Below, piece after piece: positions 4,544 through 48,665 of a DNA stretch of 64,000 nucleotides. A program made the translations under genes and the position numbers. The notes under the pieces are model-generated. The model did no database searches and had not been told where the DNA came from. It was given only the letters and a program-made list of their open reading frames with translations. Every line of letters starts with the position of its first letter. Position 1 is the first letter of the stretch. The DNA comes from a virus, in IMG/VR virus record IMGVR_UViG_3300026165_000001, positions 1 through 64,000 of that record; one strand, written 5' to 3'.

Positions 4544-4572
4544 AATATACACAAAAAACCACTGAGTGTCAA
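4544..4572 (-). promoter_or_regulatory. Sigma70-like promoter of gene 32
   Basis: TTGACA (4567-4572), 17-bp spacer, TATATT (4544-4549), minus strand. It leaves an untranslated leader of about 80 nt before the gp32 ATG, which could hold the autogenous control site known for T4 gene 32; I see no clear pseudoknot. Confidence 0.85.
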
Positions 4573-4597
4573 TAACTCTTTGATTTCCGTGCACATT

Positions 4598-4605
4598 TAT
4601 TTATC
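4598..4605 (-). promoter_or_regulatory. Late promoter octamer GATAAATA
   Basis: Minus-strand GATAAATA at the end of the preceding gene, about 140 nt upstream of gene 32. It gives gene 32 a possible second, late promoter. Confidence 0.45.
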
Positions 4606-14264: not shown

Positions 14265-14272
14265 TATTTATC
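14265..14272 (-). promoter_or_regulatory. Late promoter octamer of gene 19
   Basis: Minus-strand GATAAATA followed by C, 34 nt before the gp19 ATG. It is divergent to the plus-strand sigma70-like promoter at 14291-14319. Confidence 0.75.
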
Positions 14273-14290: not shown

Positions 14291-14319
14291 TTGACAGCCA
14301 AAACGTCTTACTATATAGT
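14291..14319 (+). promoter_or_regulatory. Sigma70-like promoter, plus strand
   Basis: TTGACA (14291-14296), 17-bp spacer, TATAGT (14314-14319). It points into a plus-strand unit (small peptide plus gene-free DNA) wedged between minus-strand late genes. Confidence 0.85.
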
Positions 14320-14342
14320 ATAACTATAAAGAAGGAAACTGA

Positions 14343-14432
14343 ATGATGTTTATGACTCTTGAAAATCTTGTTATCGGTTCTACGCTGTTTGTAACTGATT
14401 TTGTCAACACTTACGGCGTTCTCTTTCTCTAA
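14343..14432 (+). CDS. Small hydrophobic peptide (29 aa)
   Basis: ATG 14343 follows AAGGAA by 5 nt and a consensus promoter by 24 nt; the frame MMFMTLENLVIGSTLFVTDF continues to a TAA at 14430. The 29 residues are largely hydrophobic and could form one membrane helix. The good promoter and ribosome site make it a credible gene despite its size. It is the only plus-strand coding element between 1 and 23875. It may be a toxin-like or exclusion peptide, or only a leader peptide for the RNA that follows. Confidence 0.55.
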   Translation: MMFMTLENLVIGSTLFVTDFVNTYGVLFL

Positions 14433-14615
14433 GCACTAGAAACTCGTGGACCACGGCCAGATAAGGCTGGAGGACGGGGCTGAGGGGCGATAGAAACCGT
14501 ATTAGACCATCGCCCGGTATATGCATTGTTTCGTAACTACGGCCGTTGAGACTTTCGCTTTTCGGTGATGCCATCCTCAATTAGCTGTAGCAAACGCTTT
14601 GCACTAGTGTAAACT
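14433..14615 (+). ncRNA. Candidate structured RNA / untranslated region
   Basis: This 180-nt stretch has no plausible reading frame, lies downstream of the promoter at 14291 and the 29-residue frame, and is more GC-rich than its neighbours. A 7-bp stem GGGCGAT (14485-14491) / ATCGCCC (14509-14515) and CCAG/CTGG pairs near 14460 can be drawn. It ends at the hairpin 14616-14645. I do not recognise a known RNA family or a tRNA. Confidence 0.4.
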
Positions 14616-14645
14616 TGAAGCCGCTCAATTTATTGAGCGGCTTCA
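14616..14645. terminator. 13-bp hairpin between converging units
   Basis: TGAAGCCGCTCAA / TTGAGCGGCTTCA with loop TTTA. It stands between the plus-strand unit starting at 14291 and the end of the minus-strand membrane operon (stop at 14647). T-runs are weak on both sides, so it could serve as a two-way terminator. Confidence 0.65.
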
Positions 14646-14646
14646 C

Positions 14647-15072
14647 TTATGGCTTGATTATATTATGGTGGGGTAAGACCATGAGTTGATCATCTTCGCC
14701 TTCTGGCTGATCATATGTCAACCACTGTGGTGGTTGACCATCCTTCCTGGCTTCTCTAATTTCTTCCAGCATTGCAGCTTCTTCACGACTGTATGGGTAT
14801 TCATACAAGCGGTGACCTCTGTCGTTGATCGCCCAGAGTATAATTGATGGCTTGTTTGTTATCTCATGCCAAACATAGGCATATTCACCTTGGGGTTTGG
14901 CTTGTATTGGCGCCCCCATTTGCCTTACGAAGAGCTCATAAGCGACTACTCCGATCATAAGAAAACACATCAACGCGATAGATTTTAAAAACCAATGTGC
15001 TGGTGACCAGTAAGCCAGAAAAGAAACAAGCAATGCAGTTAATATGCCTATGAGAGTTAATATTGTTACCAT
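14647..15072 (-). CDS. Membrane protein, third gene of ExbB/ExbD-like operon
   Basis: A 141-residue protein with two N-terminal membrane helices (about 2-21 and 28-48) and a soluble C-terminal half containing NKPSIILWAINDRGHRLYEY and a charged helix EEAAMLEEIREARKDG. No family recognised. The start overlaps the stop of the ExbD-like gene by 7 nt, so the two are translationally coupled, which points to one complex. Sidedness of the soluble part is not clear; with two helices both ends would be on the same side. It may be an accessory or effector subunit of the channel. Confidence 0.7.
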   Translation of the reverse strand: MVTILTLIGILTALLVSFLAYWSPAHWFLKSIALMCFLMIGVVAYELFVRQMGAPIQAKPQGEYAYVWHEITNKPSIILWAINDRGHRLYEYPYSREEAAMLEEIREARKDGQPPQWLTYDQPEGEDDQLMVLPHHNIIKP

Positions 15073-29790: not shown

Positions 29791-32700
29791 TTAAACAATG
29801 GATAAATTTCCATTTACAGTAATGGTAGTTCCAGTAGCAATTTCAAGTGGTCCTGCTGCGCTGGCATTCTCGTTGGCATCTATGGTTACATCTGTATTGA
29901 GGACTTGCTCATTGACACGGAAGATATCTCCTGGTGCTGATCCAACTTCACCATTCTCGCCTTTGAAAAGACCGGCGCCGCCTCCGCCGCCAAGTGCGGC
30001 CCAAGAACTATTTGAATATCCTTCAAACTCATTATTTGTTGAGTTATAACGGATATATCCATCAGCACCAGTTGGTCTTTGTGCATCTGTTCCTACAGGC
30101 AACCGGATGGCATCAGTTGCGCTGATATCAAGACTAACAGCGGGTGCACCAGTTCCAATACCAATCAAACCATCAGATTTGACAACCAATCTATTATTAG
30201 CGCCATCTGTTTGAAACTGTATATCAGCAGCATCAATGGTTCTCATTATTAGTGAGTCTGTTCCTCTATGAAACAGGCTTGTATTGCCTTCGCTGGCTCT
30301 TAGAATTCTAAATCCATAATCTGTGTAGGTAGTTCCTCCAACAAGATCGATAAATGCATTGCCGTCGCCTGTTCTACCTTCACCGATCTGGATAAAGTGT
30401 GGTGCTGTTCCTGTGCTTCTAGTGAGATTGATGTTGTCAGCGAATGTCTTGTTGCCGCCAATTGTTTGATTGCTTGTTAAATCTACATAATCAGCTGGGT
30501 CGAATGCCTTAACTGCTGCTAGGTTGGTTACCTCACTGTCCATTAATGCTCCAGCCGCTGTAACATTGGCAGTGTCAGTTACATCAGCCAGTGCCTCTAT
30601 GCCATCTAGCTTGGTGCCATCAGATGCGAGGTCTCTGCCATCAACTGTTCCACTTACTGTGATATTGCCTGTAATATCAAGTGCGGCTCCATTGTAGGTA
30701 AGTCCGGTTGTGCCTTCAATAGTGCCATCACCAGTCCATACGCCAACTTGGTTGTCAACTGGTGTGCCTACTTTGTTTACATCCCCTCCTCCAGCAATGC
30801 TAGCCCATGTTCCATCTCCTCTCCAGTATGTTGAAGAACTCGCTCCTGTTCCACCGTTGAGGTTTGATACTGGAAGATTTCCAGTTACTTGACTTGCAAG
30901 ATCAATGTTGGCATCGTTAGTGTATGTGCCAGCACCTGTCCTGCGCATAAATCCATTTGTAGAAAAGTCACTATCCATAACAGCGCCTGCGGCTGCCACA
31001 TTAACAGTATCAGTTACATCTGCTAGTGCTTCAATGCCTGCTAGCTTTGAGATGTCGCCTGCGGTTGTAAACTTATTTGTGGTAGAAGTGTCATCTAAAT
31101 CATCTGGGTCCAATACCACAGCACCCGTCAATCCGTTGACACTGTCAACATCTCCGCCGGCATCAATAGTCAATGTTCCAGCCACATCGTTATATGTAAG
31201 TGTTACATTTGAGCCCGCTGTGAGTAGGCTATCAACTCTATCGTCTACTCGTTCATCTGTATAGTAGAGATTTGTTCCTTCACTTAGATCGTCTGTATCC
31301 TTGGTCCCTAGTCTTGTATCAAAGTCTGTATTGAAAGTGTTGTAGTATGCGGGCTCTGCCCAACTTCCATCTGCTCTCAAAAAGTTGGTTGTACCTCCAC
31401 CTGAGCTAGGGACAATACCACTGTTACTAATGTTGAATGTGCGCAGTAGATCAGTTGCCGCAGGGCCTGTGAGTGCTTCAATATCGCCTGTGCCACTACT
31501 GTCACGACCAAGTATGCGATTGGTAGCAATGTGCTGCATCTTGGCAAAAGTAATAGCTTGATCTGGAACGGCCACTGTGAGTGTTCCTGCCACATCATTA
31601 TATGTTAAGTTAATGGCATCGCCTTCAACGAGAAGTGCTGCAACTCTATCGTCTACTCGTTCATCTGTGTAGTAGAGATTTGTTCCTTCACTTAGATCTG
31701 TTGTAGAATTGCCACTCAAGTCTTGAAGTGCTGTGTCTGCCAAATCGCCCTGTGCTGCTGTGGCATAGTCAGCCGGATCAAATGCCTTAACTGCTGCTAG
31801 GTTGGTTACCTCACTATCCATGAGTGCCCCTGCTGATGTAACATTAGCAGTATCAGTTACATCAGCGCCAGTTTCAATACCTGCTAGTTTTGTTTGTTCG
31901 CTATCTGTAAAGGCATTTGTATTAACATTATTTTCATAAGCAGTCTTGATCTCAGCATCTGTTTGGTCTGCTGTCGCACCAGTTTCAATACCTGCTAGTT
32001 TTGAGATGTCACCTGCCGTTGTAAACTTGTTGGTTGTTGAGGTGTCATCTAGATCATCTGGGTCCAATACCACAACACCTGTTTGTCCATTTACACTATC
32101 AACTGGAGCCGTTCCGCCTGCCGCATCAATAGTCAGTGTTCCTGACACATCATCATATGTGAGGGTAATGTTTGTTCCACCAACCAGTAGACTGTCAACT
32201 CTATCGTCTACTCGTTCATTGGTGAAGTAAAGGTTTGTTCCCTCACTTAGATCGGTAGTTGAACTACCTGAAAGATCCTGTAGTGCTGTGTCTGCCAAAT
32301 CGCCCTGTGCGGCAGTAGCATAGTCAGCCGGATCAAATGCCTTGACATCAGCTAGATTTGTTACTTCGCTGTCCATTAGGGCACCTGCTGATGTAACATT
32401 GGCAGTATCAGTCACATCTGCTAGTGCTTCCACTCCTGCTAGTTTTGTTTGTTCAGCATCAGTAAAGGCATTGGTATCAGCATTATTTTCATAAGCAGTC
32501 TTTATCTCTGCATCTGTTTGATCGGCAGTTGCGCCTGCTTCCACTCCTGCTAGCTTTGAGATGTCGCTTGCGGTTGTAAACTTGTTGGTTGTTGAGGTGT
32601 CATCTAGATCATCTGGATCCAATACCACAACACCTGTTTGTCCATTTACACTGTCAACGTCTCCGCCACTTCCTCCCCCGATCGCGCCCCAGCCTGAGTT

Positions 32701-32871
32701 ATATCCTTCAAACTGACCAAGGTCAGAATTGAAACGTATCATACCATCAACACCAGATGGTCGATTACCTGTTGTGCCTACTGGTAACTTGACAGCACCT
32801 AGAATATCGAATGTGAGTGTCTCGTCTTCAGTTGAGATCAGGTTACCATTATGATTTAAATTAATTGGCAT
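29791..32871 (-). CDS. Large repetitive tail fibre protein (1026 aa)
   Basis: The N-terminus MPINLNHNGNLISTEDETLT is probably the virion-attachment end. Next come tandem repeats of about 180 residues, each with VNGQTGVVVLDPDDLDDTST, KLAG(V/I)E, AFTD(A/S)EQTKLAG, DPADYATAAQGDLADTALQD and NLYFTNERVDDRVDSLL; two full copies and degenerate parts follow. The C-terminus has DAIRLPVGTDAQRP...DGYIRYNS, a second copy of the N-terminal LPVGTTGNRPSGVDGMIRFN unit, and ends GTTITVNGNLSIV. It is an elongated trimer by analogy. A late octamer (32901-32908) precedes it. Confidence 0.85.
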   Translation of the reverse strand: MPINLNHNGNLISTEDETLTFDILGAVKLPVGTTGNRPSGVDGMIRFNSDLGQFEGYNSGWGAIGGGSGGDVDSVNGQTGVVVLDPDDLDDTSTTNKFTTASDISKLAGVEAGATADQTDAEIKTAYENNADTNAFTDAEQTKLAGVEALADVTDTANVTSAGALMDSEVTNLADVKAFDPADYATAAQGDLADTALQDLSGSSTTDLSEGTNLYFTNERVDDRVDSLLVGGTNITLTYDDVSGTLTIDAAGGTAPVDSVNGQTGVVVLDPDDLDDTSTTNKFTTAGDISKLAGIETGATADQTDAEIKTAYENNVNTNAFTDSEQTKLAGIETGADVTDTANVTSAGALMDSEVTNLAAVKAFDPADYATAAQGDLADTALQDLSGNSTTDLSEGTNLYYTDERVDDRVAALLVEGDAINLTYNDVAGTLTVAVPDQAITFAKMQHIATNRILGRDSSGTGDIEALTGPAATDLLRTFNISNSGIVPSSGGGTTNFLRADGSWAEPAYYNTFNTDFDTRLGTKDTDDLSEGTNLYYTDERVDDRVDSLLTAGSNVTLTYNDVAGTLTIDAGGDVDSVNGLTGAVVLDPDDLDDTSTTNKFTTAGDISKLAGIEALADVTDTVNVAAAGAVMDSDFSTNGFMRRTGAGTYTNDANIDLASQVTGNLPVSNLNGGTGASSSTYWRGDGTWASIAGGGDVNKVGTPVDNQVGVWTGDGTIEGTTGLTYNGAALDITGNITVSGTVDGRDLASDGTKLDGIEALADVTDTANVTAAGALMDSEVTNLAAVKAFDPADYVDLTSNQTIGGNKTFADNINLTRSTGTAPHFIQIGEGRTGDGNAFIDLVGGTTYTDYGFRILRASEGNTSLFHRGTDSLIMRTIDAADIQFQTDGANNRLVVKSDGLIGIGTGAPAVSLDISATDAIRLPVGTDAQRPTGADGYIRYNSTNNEFEGYSNSSWAALGGGGGAGLFKGENGEVGSAPGDIFRVNEQVLNTDVTIDANENASAAGPLEIATGTTITVNGNLSIV
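31740..32660 (-). repeat. Direct DNA repeats (about 550-bp unit) in the fibre gene
   Basis: The stretches near 31741-32100 and 32284-32650 are near-identical at DNA level (for example the segments around 31745/32288 and 32041/32593), an offset of about 545-555 bp. Such repeats allow unit gain or loss by recombination. Confidence 0.8.
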
Positions 32872-32888: not shown

Positions 32889-32917
32889 TTGACTTCCTGG
32901 TATTTATCGCTTATATT
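32889..32917 (+). promoter_or_regulatory. Sigma70-like promoter overlapping opposing late promoter
   Basis: Plus-strand TTGACT (32889-32894), 17-bp spacer, TATATT (32912-32917). The minus-strand late octamer at 32901-32908 lies wholly inside its spacer. It is directed at a gene-free stretch ending in a terminator. Confidence 0.82.
32901..32908 (-). promoter_or_regulatory. Late promoter octamer of the large fibre gene
   Basis: Minus-strand GATAAATA followed by CC, 29 nt before ATG 32871; AGGAA gives a ribosome site between. Confidence 0.75.
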
Positions 32918-32923
32918 GAATAC

Positions 32924-33116
32924 ATATTAAGCGGCTCCGAGGGATATGGGGCGTTGAATAAAGTAACTAGCGTTAGGCACAGGTGAGACCGGACTATTAC
33001 AGCTGGTCACTGACCCTAGTGCACCTGAGGTCGCGTTGCGGCCATAGGGGATCAGAGTAACTAGTAACCATTTCGATCAAGAGTGAACCGGCCCTAGGGC
33101 CGGTTCTTTTGTTTTT
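32924..33116 (+). ncRNA. Candidate plus-strand non-coding RNA (about 190 nt)
   Basis: The stretch is bounded by a consensus promoter (32889-32917) and a strong terminator (33085-33116), contains no convincing reading frame, and lies between two minus-strand late genes. Stems can be drawn: CAGGTG (32980-32985) / CACCTG (33022-33027) enclosing GACC / GGTC (32987-32990, 33005-33008). GTAACTAG occurs twice (32963, 33057). It matches no RNA family I know. Boundaries are predicted from the -10 and the T-run. Confidence 0.7.
33085..33116 (+). terminator. Rho-independent terminator, plus strand
   Basis: GAACCGGCCC / GGGCCGGTTC palindrome (33085-33106) followed by TTTTGTTTTT. On the minus strand it also follows the gp23 stop but without a good T-run, so its main direction is plus. 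Confidence 0.9.
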
Positions 33117-33132
33117 ACTAAAACAACAGCTA

Positions 33133-34293
33133 TTAGCTGAAGGTTAGGTTTGCAGTTGTAACGTCAATGCGGTTTAGGTAGTCCGCAGCGTTACCAAGGC
33201 TTGACGCCTGGTTGCTGAGTTCTACGTATCCGTAACGTGTCATGAAGCTGACAACTGGCTCGAAGGTGCTTGGGTCAAGCACTGTGCCTGAGCTCATTAG
33301 AGGAATGTATGGGCAGTAGAATGCCGCTGCATCTGTCTCGTTTGAACCTTTATATCCGATAAGGATGTTGTCGTCTGTCGCATACTGGTTAACATAAACG
33401 CGCATTGAGCCGTTTAGTGTACCAACGAACTTGGTGTTTGTTGGCGCCTCGAAAGGACCTTCAGTTGTGCGAGCAAATGCACTTGTGGTAGCTGCCTGGA
33501 GCACTGTGAGGATTGTTGGTGAAACAACCATCCAGTTACCAGCGCCACGACGTGTGCGAGCTGCAATGTCGTTTGCTGCCTTGTTGATGAGCACTGCTAG
33601 TGCAGCATGTTCGTCACCAACAAAGGTTGCGGTTCCGCTTACTGCGTTCTGGTCGTATGTGCTGGTTGCAGCACCTGCGAGTGAACGTAGAGATGCTAGG
33701 ATCTCTTGGTCGATTTCAGCAGTGATCTCCTGCGCGAGCGCAGCCATGATCTCTGCTTCAACGTCTAGGCCATGCATAGCTTGTGCGTCTTGCGCAGCTT
33801 CGAAAGTCCAACGTGCGCTGAGCTTACGAGTCTTTGCTTCGACGGTCTGCTTGAGGACCTGGATGTTTAGCTTACGACCAGCCTGACCTTCAAGCACTGA
33901 AGTTGCTTCAGCGCGGTCAGTTGTAGCGTTACCTGAGTAACCGTTAGCAATCTGGAACGGGCTAAGTGCCTCGTCACCAGCAACTGCTGAGTCGAATGTT
34001 TCTGCATAACGGACACGTAGAGTGTGGATTTGACCAACTGGGCCGGTCATTGGCTGCACACCAACTAGTTCGTTTGCAATAACAGTTGGCATAACACGGC
34101 GGATAACTGGTAGGATCACTTTGTTAAGTGTCGCAATGTTACCTGCTGATGTTGAGCCGACTGTTGCAGATTCTGACAACTGCTTCTTGGTGTTTTCAAG
34201 AACAGTTTCCATAACTGACTTTTTGTTACCGGTCAAGCCGTCAACGAGTGCGTCCTTGGTTGCTGACCAGTTTTCGAATAGAACGTCTGCCAT
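33133..34293 (-). CDS. 23: Major capsid protein (gp23)
   Basis: A 386-residue HK97-fold capsid protein: N-terminal SVMETVLENTKKQLSESATV, then VIRRVMPTVIANELVGVQPM, GPVGQIHTLRVRYAETF and a C-terminal FMTRYGYVELSNQ region. It is much shorter than T4 gp23 (521 residues). The site QLSE then S (cut after Glu41) is a good gp21 protease motif, giving a mature start at Ser42. AAAGGAG precedes the ATG. It ends the head cassette 20-67-21-22-23 and forms the hexamers of the head. Confidence 0.95.
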   Translation of the reverse strand: MADVLFENWSATKDALVDGLTGNKKSVMETVLENTKKQLSESATVGSTSAGNIATLNKVILPVIRRVMPTVIANELVGVQPMTGPVGQIHTLRVRYAETFDSAVAGDEALSPFQIANGYSGNATTDRAEATSVLEGQAGRKLNIQVLKQTVEAKTRKLSARWTFEAAQDAQAMHGLDVEAEIMAALAQEITAEIDQEILASLRSLAGAATSTYDQNAVSGTATFVGDEHAALAVLINKAANDIAARTRRGAGNWMVVSPTILTVLQAATTSAFARTTEGPFEAPTNTKFVGTLNGSMRVYVNQYATDDNILIGYKGSNETDAAAFYCPYIPLMSSGTVLDPSTFEPVVSFMTRYGYVELSNQASSLGNAADYLNRIDVTTANLTFS

Positions 34294-47699: not shown

Positions 47700-48593
47700 C
47701 TAAATAGTATTGTATCCGGCATTTCTTAATTCTTCTTGTTTTTTTTCTTCATCCTCATCCCGAGAACGTTGCTGGGCAGCTTCATCGTCTAGCTGACGGT
47801 TGAAGCTGGGCATGTATCCGCCATCCTGTAACATGTCGTCACGGATGTTTTGGTTACGTTTTTCGAGATTGAGAACACGAGTAAAGCTATTAGTGATGGT
47901 TGCAGTATAGTAAGCGAAAGGATTAGCACTTCTTGCTTCGTTAAACTTGAGTCCAACTTCACTCAACTGTAATAATGCTGCACTTTGCATCTCATCATTA
48001 TATGTATAGCCCCGCCAGTTACCGCGCATTGCATAACGCTCTACCAACTTCATCATCATTTTGGCCAGCTCGCCTGTCAAACCACCATGTGTTTGACTAA
48101 AATGACCGTTATCAAATCCACCTTGCCAGTGGCTACGCAATACTTCCTTTAGTTCACCATCTACAAACGCATAGTGTTTAAATGGCGGAAAGTTGATGCG
48201 AGTGTGTAGGTCTGCTACTGTTTTTGGGTTTTTCTTTCGATTAGGTGTTTCTGGGATATGATCATATGTCATTACACGAAACACAACGTCTTCATCTGAG
48301 ATAGAGCTGGGATCAACACGAAAATCAGCTTGTTTGGGTTTTGTTGATCTCACACCACCTGCATCATGCCACGCATTGATACCTTTTTCATATCCCGCGC
48401 TTGATAGTTGCGCAGCGTGATTTTCTTTTGCCTCATGAATTTTTTCGTCGTCGATCTCTTCTAGAGAATCAACAATGTTGTCAAAATGCTTGTATCGATC
48501 ATCCAAGGCATAGCAATAACTTAGCTTGCTCTTGTGAATTTCCTTTAGCATATCTTTGTTGTTGAGGTATTTTGTAGACTTCTTCCTGACCAT
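47700..48593 (-). CDS. 55: Late sigma factor (gp55)
   Basis: A 297-residue T4-like gp55, the small sigma factor that directs host RNA polymerase to TATAAATA late promoters together with the sliding clamp. The sigma region 2-like core is GELAKMMMKLVERYAMRGNW, RGYTYNDEMQSAALLQLSEV and NPFAYYTATITNSFTRVLNL. T4 gp55 is 185 residues; this one has a longer N-terminal part (about 100 residues). It is first in a long operon and is transcribed from a consensus sigma70-like promoter, consistent with middle expression. Confidence 0.9.
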   Translation of the reverse strand: MVRKKSTKYLNNKDMLKEIHKSKLSYCYALDDRYKHFDNIVDSLEEIDDEKIHEAKENHAAQLSSAGYEKGINAWHDAGGVRSTKPKQADFRVDPSSISDEDVVFRVMTYDHIPETPNRKKNPKTVADLHTRINFPPFKHYAFVDGELKEVLRSHWQGGFDNGHFSQTHGGLTGELAKMMMKLVERYAMRGNWRGYTYNDEMQSAALLQLSEVGLKFNEARSANPFAYYTATITNSFTRVLNLEKRNQNIRDDMLQDGGYMPSFNRQLDDEAAQQRSRDEDEEKKQEELRNAGYNTI

Positions 48594-48614: not shown

Positions 48615-48643
48615 AGTATAATACGTTAACCCATTGAAGTCAA
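48615..48643 (-). promoter_or_regulatory. Sigma70-like promoter of gp55 operon
   Basis: TTGACT (48638-48643), 17-bp spacer, TATACT (48615-48620), minus strand; AAGGAA lies before ATG 48593. It drives gp55 and the recombination genes. Confidence 0.87.
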
Positions 48644-48657
48644 GCGGTTTTCAGGCT

Positions 48658-48665
48658 GATAAATA
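48658..48665 (+). promoter_or_regulatory. Late promoter octamer of the baseplate operon
   Basis: Plus-strand GATAAATA, 64 nt before ATG 48730 of the gp48/54-like gene. Confidence 0.65.

Follow-up and report, generated by a model that had tools for sequence, protein, structure and literature searches.

Between the tail-fibre and major capsid genes of the 64,000-nt stretch of viral DNA analysed here (hereafter, the window), we found an early-type promoter on the plus strand that holds, inside its own spacer, the minus-strand late promoter of the fibre gene. Judged by sequence comparison, both promoters look real, and relatives keep the pair and not the sequence of the RNA that would be read from it. 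We judge it reasonably probable that two divergent promoters of this uncultured, gp55-type (T4-like) phage, one early and one late, physically overlap at the site; the pair would give a short early RNA and later the fibre mRNA. We regard the site as a candidate gene for an early RNA, with selection apparently acting on the promoter and not on the body. According to a 2010 review of post-transcriptional control in T4, no small trans-acting regulatory RNA of this phage had been functionally characterised, and it was hoped that related genomes would suggest small-RNA candidates (PMC3014915). The first-pass annotation had proposed a foldable non-coding RNA whose early promoter encloses the late one, an interpretation that, as a whole, is partly supported by our results.

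Layout of the promoter pair and its occurrence beyond chance

The -35 hexamer TTGACT (32889-32894, plus strand) and the -10 hexamer TATATT (32912-32917), part of GCTTATATT, are 17 nt apart within the early-type promoter TTGACT-N17-TATATT (32889-32917). The spacer contains, on the minus strand, the late promoter GATAAATA (32901-32908), just as the first-pass annotation had read it. The fibre ATG (32871) lies 29 nt downstream of GATAAATA and opens a gene of 1026 aa (29791-32871, minus strand; phrog_24456 tail fiber, E=3e-96). The late promoter had been called opposing; the two promoters are divergent (back to back) and do not face each other. Judging by the distance to the -10 hexamer, plus-strand transcription would start near 32924, with ATATTAA as the first bases (32924-32930), and the fibre transcript is predicted to start at about 32895; the predicted RNAs overlap neither each other nor the capsid or fibre ORF.

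The putative plus-strand transcript would cover about 190 nt (32924-33116) and end at a G+C-rich hairpin followed by a T-run (33085-33116; arms GAACCGGCCCT and AGGGCCGGTTC at 33085-33106, then TTTTGTTTTT), which has the form of an intrinsic terminator. Just beyond it lies the stop codon (33133) of the gene for the gp23-like major capsid protein, MCP (33133-34293, minus strand; PF07068 Gp23, E=2e-101; phrog_138). The absence of a reading frame between promoter and hairpin, already pointed out from the sequence, stands: ORFs of at least 20 codons in this stretch start with GTG or TTG, encode 25-36 aa, and none is credible. Lying between the MCP stop (33133) and the fibre start (32871), the stretch 32924-33116 overlaps no ORF and is not an antisense RNA to either gene. 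A tRNA search found none. No Rfam family matched the window at the gathering score, and a permissive search gave weak, hairpin-driven matches, all of them below gathering. Similar intergenic DNA was sought in an annotated phage collection, with nothing beyond two marginal matches.

A generic sigma-70 scan of 10 kb gave 11 promoters versus 16.5 expected, and a generic terminator scan of the same 10 kb gave 8 versus 8.2. Neither shows an excess, so the claim cannot rest on generic scans; the top-scoring promoter of the sigma-70 scan was the site at 32889. The class TTGAC-N17-TATNNT is enriched in the window, with nine copies versus 0.85 expected. Copies also stand directly upstream of the gp32-like SSB, SbcD-like and gp55-like genes, the last of which (47700-48593, minus strand; phrog_12791, E=2.7e-87; phrog_234, E=2.9e-21) is preceded by TTGACT-N17-TATACT (48643-48615, minus strand). 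Two of the nine copies (14291 and 32889) are on the plus strand, and neither precedes an ordinary gene. The combined pattern TTGAC-N7-TATTTAT-N3-TTAT has one exact occurrence, and 0.06 would be expected by chance with up to two mismatches. Regarding the late class, NATAAATA has 16 exact matches in the window, 12 of which fall within the zone from 3 to 75 nt ahead of an ORF on their own strand; this zone makes up 3.9% of the sequence (P=1.8e-14).

Judged by the placement of NATAAATA and the encoded gp55-like sigma, the late promoter class is real in the window, and by the enrichment of TTGAC-N17-TATNNT and its copies before early-type genes, so is the early one. The fibre gene has two sequence features expected of a T4-type late promoter, namely NATAAATA shortly before the start of a late gene and a phage that encodes a gp55-like sigma. 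The plus-strand site, in turn, looks like an early promoter for host sigma-70: its -35 and -10 hexamers are near consensus and 17 nt apart, early genes of this phage use promoters of the same class, and relatives retain it beyond the neighbouring DNA.

Other promoters of the window show related arrangements. A second plus-strand early-type promoter, TTGACA-N17-TATAGT, is intergenic among late genes (14291-14650); immediately before it, at 14265, is a GATAAATA on the minus strand. Beyond the promoter come a tiny ORF, about 200 gene-free nucleotides and a hairpin near 14619-14643, and among ten records searched the element occurred only in the same population. At 48615-48665, the minus-strand early-type promoter of the gp55-like gene adjoins the plus-strand GATAAATA of a virion protein gene, the two being divergent and non-overlapping. 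Three near-identical early promoters precede small genes on the minus strand at 1248, 20778 and 21904 (listed at 1228, 20758 and 21884); they make up a repeated promoter-leader module, T[TA]GACAAACCAAG...GCTTATATT...GTAAGCAAAGGAG, and have GCTTATATT in common with the site at 32889. Finally, the gp32-like SSB gene carries late GATAAATA and early TTGACA-N17-TATATT in tandem (4572 and 4598, within 4544-4605, minus strand), a combination known from RB49 and S-PM2 (PMC2984593).

Conservation of the promoter pair across lineages

What is decisive for the reality of the pair, as far as sequence can tell, is its conservation in other lineages. Four contigs (L083, L084, L165 and L168) belong to the same population as the window. 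Lineages with the capsid-fibre junction came from searches with the fibre protein or with the hairpin (L148, L163 with L164 and L167, L169, L166 and L147), and from a search with the promoter pattern (L179 and L186); that pattern fixes most promoter columns and leaves as independent ones the last bases of the -10 hexamer and +1 to +10. TTGAC is present in 6/6 lineages found without the promoter pattern. Among five of them (the window, L148, L163, L169 and L166), mean pairwise identity was 0.88 in the -35 hexamer, 0.60 in spacer positions 1-6, 0.96 in positions 7-17, 0.83 in the -10 hexamer and 0.47 in the discriminator. It was 0.90 at +1 to +7 versus 0.24 at +8 to +50, the latter being the chance level. 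In L147, TTGACT and the late motif are kept and the -10 is weak (TATGTG), and in L170 the pair is absent. Both lineages found through the pattern retain it, L186 beside an unrelated fibre gene. In the lineages that keep the pair, the overlap geometry is invariant and the RNA variable.

The -35 position of T4 late promoters has no sequence conservation, according to a review of T4 late transcription (PMC2988020), so a late promoter alone does not account for the conserved block upstream of GATAAATA, which points to a plus-strand promoter. This bears on the alternative that the plus promoter is unused and the block consists of the late promoter, the start of the fibre mRNA (GTCAACAGGAA) and DNA that the gp55 polymerase contacts further upstream. 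Such a reading would account for L147, which retains GTCAA and GATAAATA despite its weak plus-strand -10, and for the position of GTCAA in the fibre 5' UTR, near a Shine-Dalgarno-like AGGA. It fits poorly with the six bases between GATAAATA and GTCAA, which are free to vary even though the 17-nt spacing is constant, and with the -10 and +1 to +7, which are on the upstream side of the late promoter, a region unconserved in T4 late promoters. Nor does it fit L186, which has an unrelated fibre N-terminus with a closer TATAAATA of its own and nonetheless retains the whole promoter block. We consider this alternative unlikely.

The transcribed body and the manA RNA of related phages

The body between promoter and hairpin is about 70-190 nt long, depending on the lineage, with little sequence in common, and in a covariation attempt on relatives it could be aligned in two lineages only. 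The first-pass annotation had stated that the RNA can fold, which in our hands comes mostly from the terminator hairpin: the RNA of the window including the terminator gave z=-2.29, and its body without the terminator was no more stable than shuffled sequences (z=-1.00), as was the L148 body (z=-0.22). A conserved folded RNA is not supported by these comparisons, nor is the structured RNA proposed earlier. Of the strong rho-independent terminator claimed, the sequence form (a plus-strand hairpin and T-run) is present in the window but not kept in most relatives. The hairpin is common to relatives, and a strong plus-strand T-run was found in 2/7 lineages (the window and L148), the remaining ones lacking it or having it on the other strand; in several relatives the minus-strand T-run is the better one, as a terminator of the capsid gene would have it. 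The seven conserved bases at the 5' end and the unconserved body would leave the RNA a role of its 5' end, a fast-evolving role or none.

The bodies of the window and L148 have a 17-nt identity in common, GACCCTAGTGCACCTGA. The same 17-mer is also found in other phages, within genes of apparent prohead proteases, and codes there for DPSAP(D/E). We considered it as an antisense or recombination link and judged it a chance match; the protease gene of the window itself lacks it.

The candidate's intergenic position is taken by manA RNA (RF01745) in more distant relatives. In 27 of 73 more distant loci, manA stands alone downstream of the gp23 gene, on the capsid strand and with its own TTGAC-N17/18-TATATT promoter, mostly 100-600 nt and up to about 1 kb after the capsid gene (RF01745 or below-threshold relatives in L014, L024-L026, L028-L030, L032, L033, L036, L037, L040, L042-L044, L046, L049, L051, L057, L058, L066, L067, L069, L070, L072, L075 and L078). 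A stand-alone manA with its own promoter looks unlike a 5' UTR riboswitch arrangement. Several of these loci also carry, further on, the freshwater-2 RNA (RF02980).

Hence, one could argue that the window encodes a functional structured small RNA, equivalent to manA at the same place and in reversed orientation. The frequency of manA behind the MCP gene and the 17-nt identity of the window and L148 bodies would be in line with it. On the other side, Rfam gave no manA match in the window at E<=10 nor in L179 at E<=5, our local manA model R1 was silent in the window region and its close relatives, the body folds no better than shuffles, and its sequence and length differ among lineages. We regard this equivalence as improbable, more so than an unused plus promoter. 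Homology of the window clade to manA, suggested by AGTGCAAG in L179, was rejected after the model searches. Early non-coding transcription beside the capsid gene appears to occur in both groups, with different RNAs, and we do not claim common descent.

A proposed hand-over from early to late transcription and related systems

In the reading that we favour, the host RNA polymerase with its main sigma (sigma-70) would use TTGACT-N17-TATATT early and produce a short, ORF-free RNA from near 32924, ending at the hairpin by the end of the capsid gene. Late, the polymerase with the phage gp55-like sigma would use GATAAATA and transcribe the fibre gene the opposite way. Two polymerases could not sit there at once, a point of the first-pass annotation that the overlap geometry bears out. 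The order would most likely be set by sigma replacement, and the timing is probably explained most simply by this change of sigma, the overlap being a compact hand-over and not the cause of the switch. The RNA would have a role that tolerates rapid change of its body, which could lie, for instance, in its 5' end, in fast-changing pairing or merely in being transcribed.

A stronger version, which we hold to be about as unlikely as an unused plus promoter, is that the promoter within a promoter is a true early/late toggle. Firing of the early RNA, deliberately non-coding and fast-evolving, would hold the fibre promoter closed until the gp55 polymerase takes over, with a body free to change and possibly a host-directed RNA. 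A little less probable than the manA equivalence is that transcription itself is what matters, early plus-strand firing keeping the fibre promoter shut so that an occupancy switch sets the timing or amount of fibre. The overlap geometry is indeed invariant although the RNA varies, but late promoters need gp55 and would be silent early anyway, so that extra repression looks unnecessary, and most other late genes of the window have no enclosing promoter. Some T4 origin transcripts prime DNA replication at R-loop origins. A conserved promoter and first bases with a variable body would fit such priming by the early transcript, but we find it very improbable here, the origin idea being weakened by composition (the transcribed body is not an AT-rich unwinding element) and by GC skew, which shows no sustained turn near 33 kb and turns near 48-50 kb.

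A comparable geometry was found in four marine contigs (L232, L240, L241 and L246), where TTGACT-N17-TATAAT has TATTTATC in its spacer. Their early side has a small gene and a 337-codon gene (a UvdE-like endonuclease in L241), and on the other strand GATAAATA precedes a gene of 431 codons (L240) or 528 codons (L241). The gp55 and gp23 profiles gave no match in L241-type contigs, so their late promoter, which would make this a comparable divergent overlap, is one that we only infer. The promoter pattern of the window occurs in freshwater contigs (L172, L174-L177, L181, L184, L185, L187, L189, L190, L193 and L242) with replication-initiator and RusA-like genes. Given this gene content and the lack of a gp55 or gp23 profile match in those tested, GATAAATA is there probably a coincidence in the spacer. 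In these freshwater contigs, TTGACT-N17-TATATT is followed by a long non-coding sequence (CATACGGGGCCATTACCCAGCCCTCCTAAATGTAGTAGCTGACAG...) that is strongly conserved, and Rfam found nothing at the gathering score in L175, L176, L185 and L187.

The window offers a clean case for asking whether early and late promoters overlap merely to save space or to set the timing of expression. Among known RNAs, manA of related marine phages has the same intergenic place, its own early-type promoter and no ORF; the putative RNA of the window differs in lying on the strand opposite to MCP, in giving no sequence or model match and in having no conserved fold. The CfrI antisense RNA of cyanophage S-PM2 is likewise a short RNA (about 225 nt) opposite to neighbouring genes (PMC2984593), but it overlaps ORFs in antisense, while the predicted RNA of the window would end short of the MCP stop codon, clear of both ORFs. 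Regarding promoters, phi29 has close early (A2b/A2c) and late (A3) promoters, and early transcription gives way to late at a single site (PMC3100819). In phi29 these are separate sites switched by the phage proteins p4 and p6, whereas in the window the late promoter sits within the spacer of the early one, a change of sigma is the proposed switch and, unlike in phi29, the early product would be non-coding. Finally, RB49, S-PM2 and Syn9 also combine a host-type early promoter and a NATAAATA late promoter at one locus (PMC2984593); their pairs serve one gene in one direction, whereas the pair in the window diverges towards a non-coding RNA and a gene.
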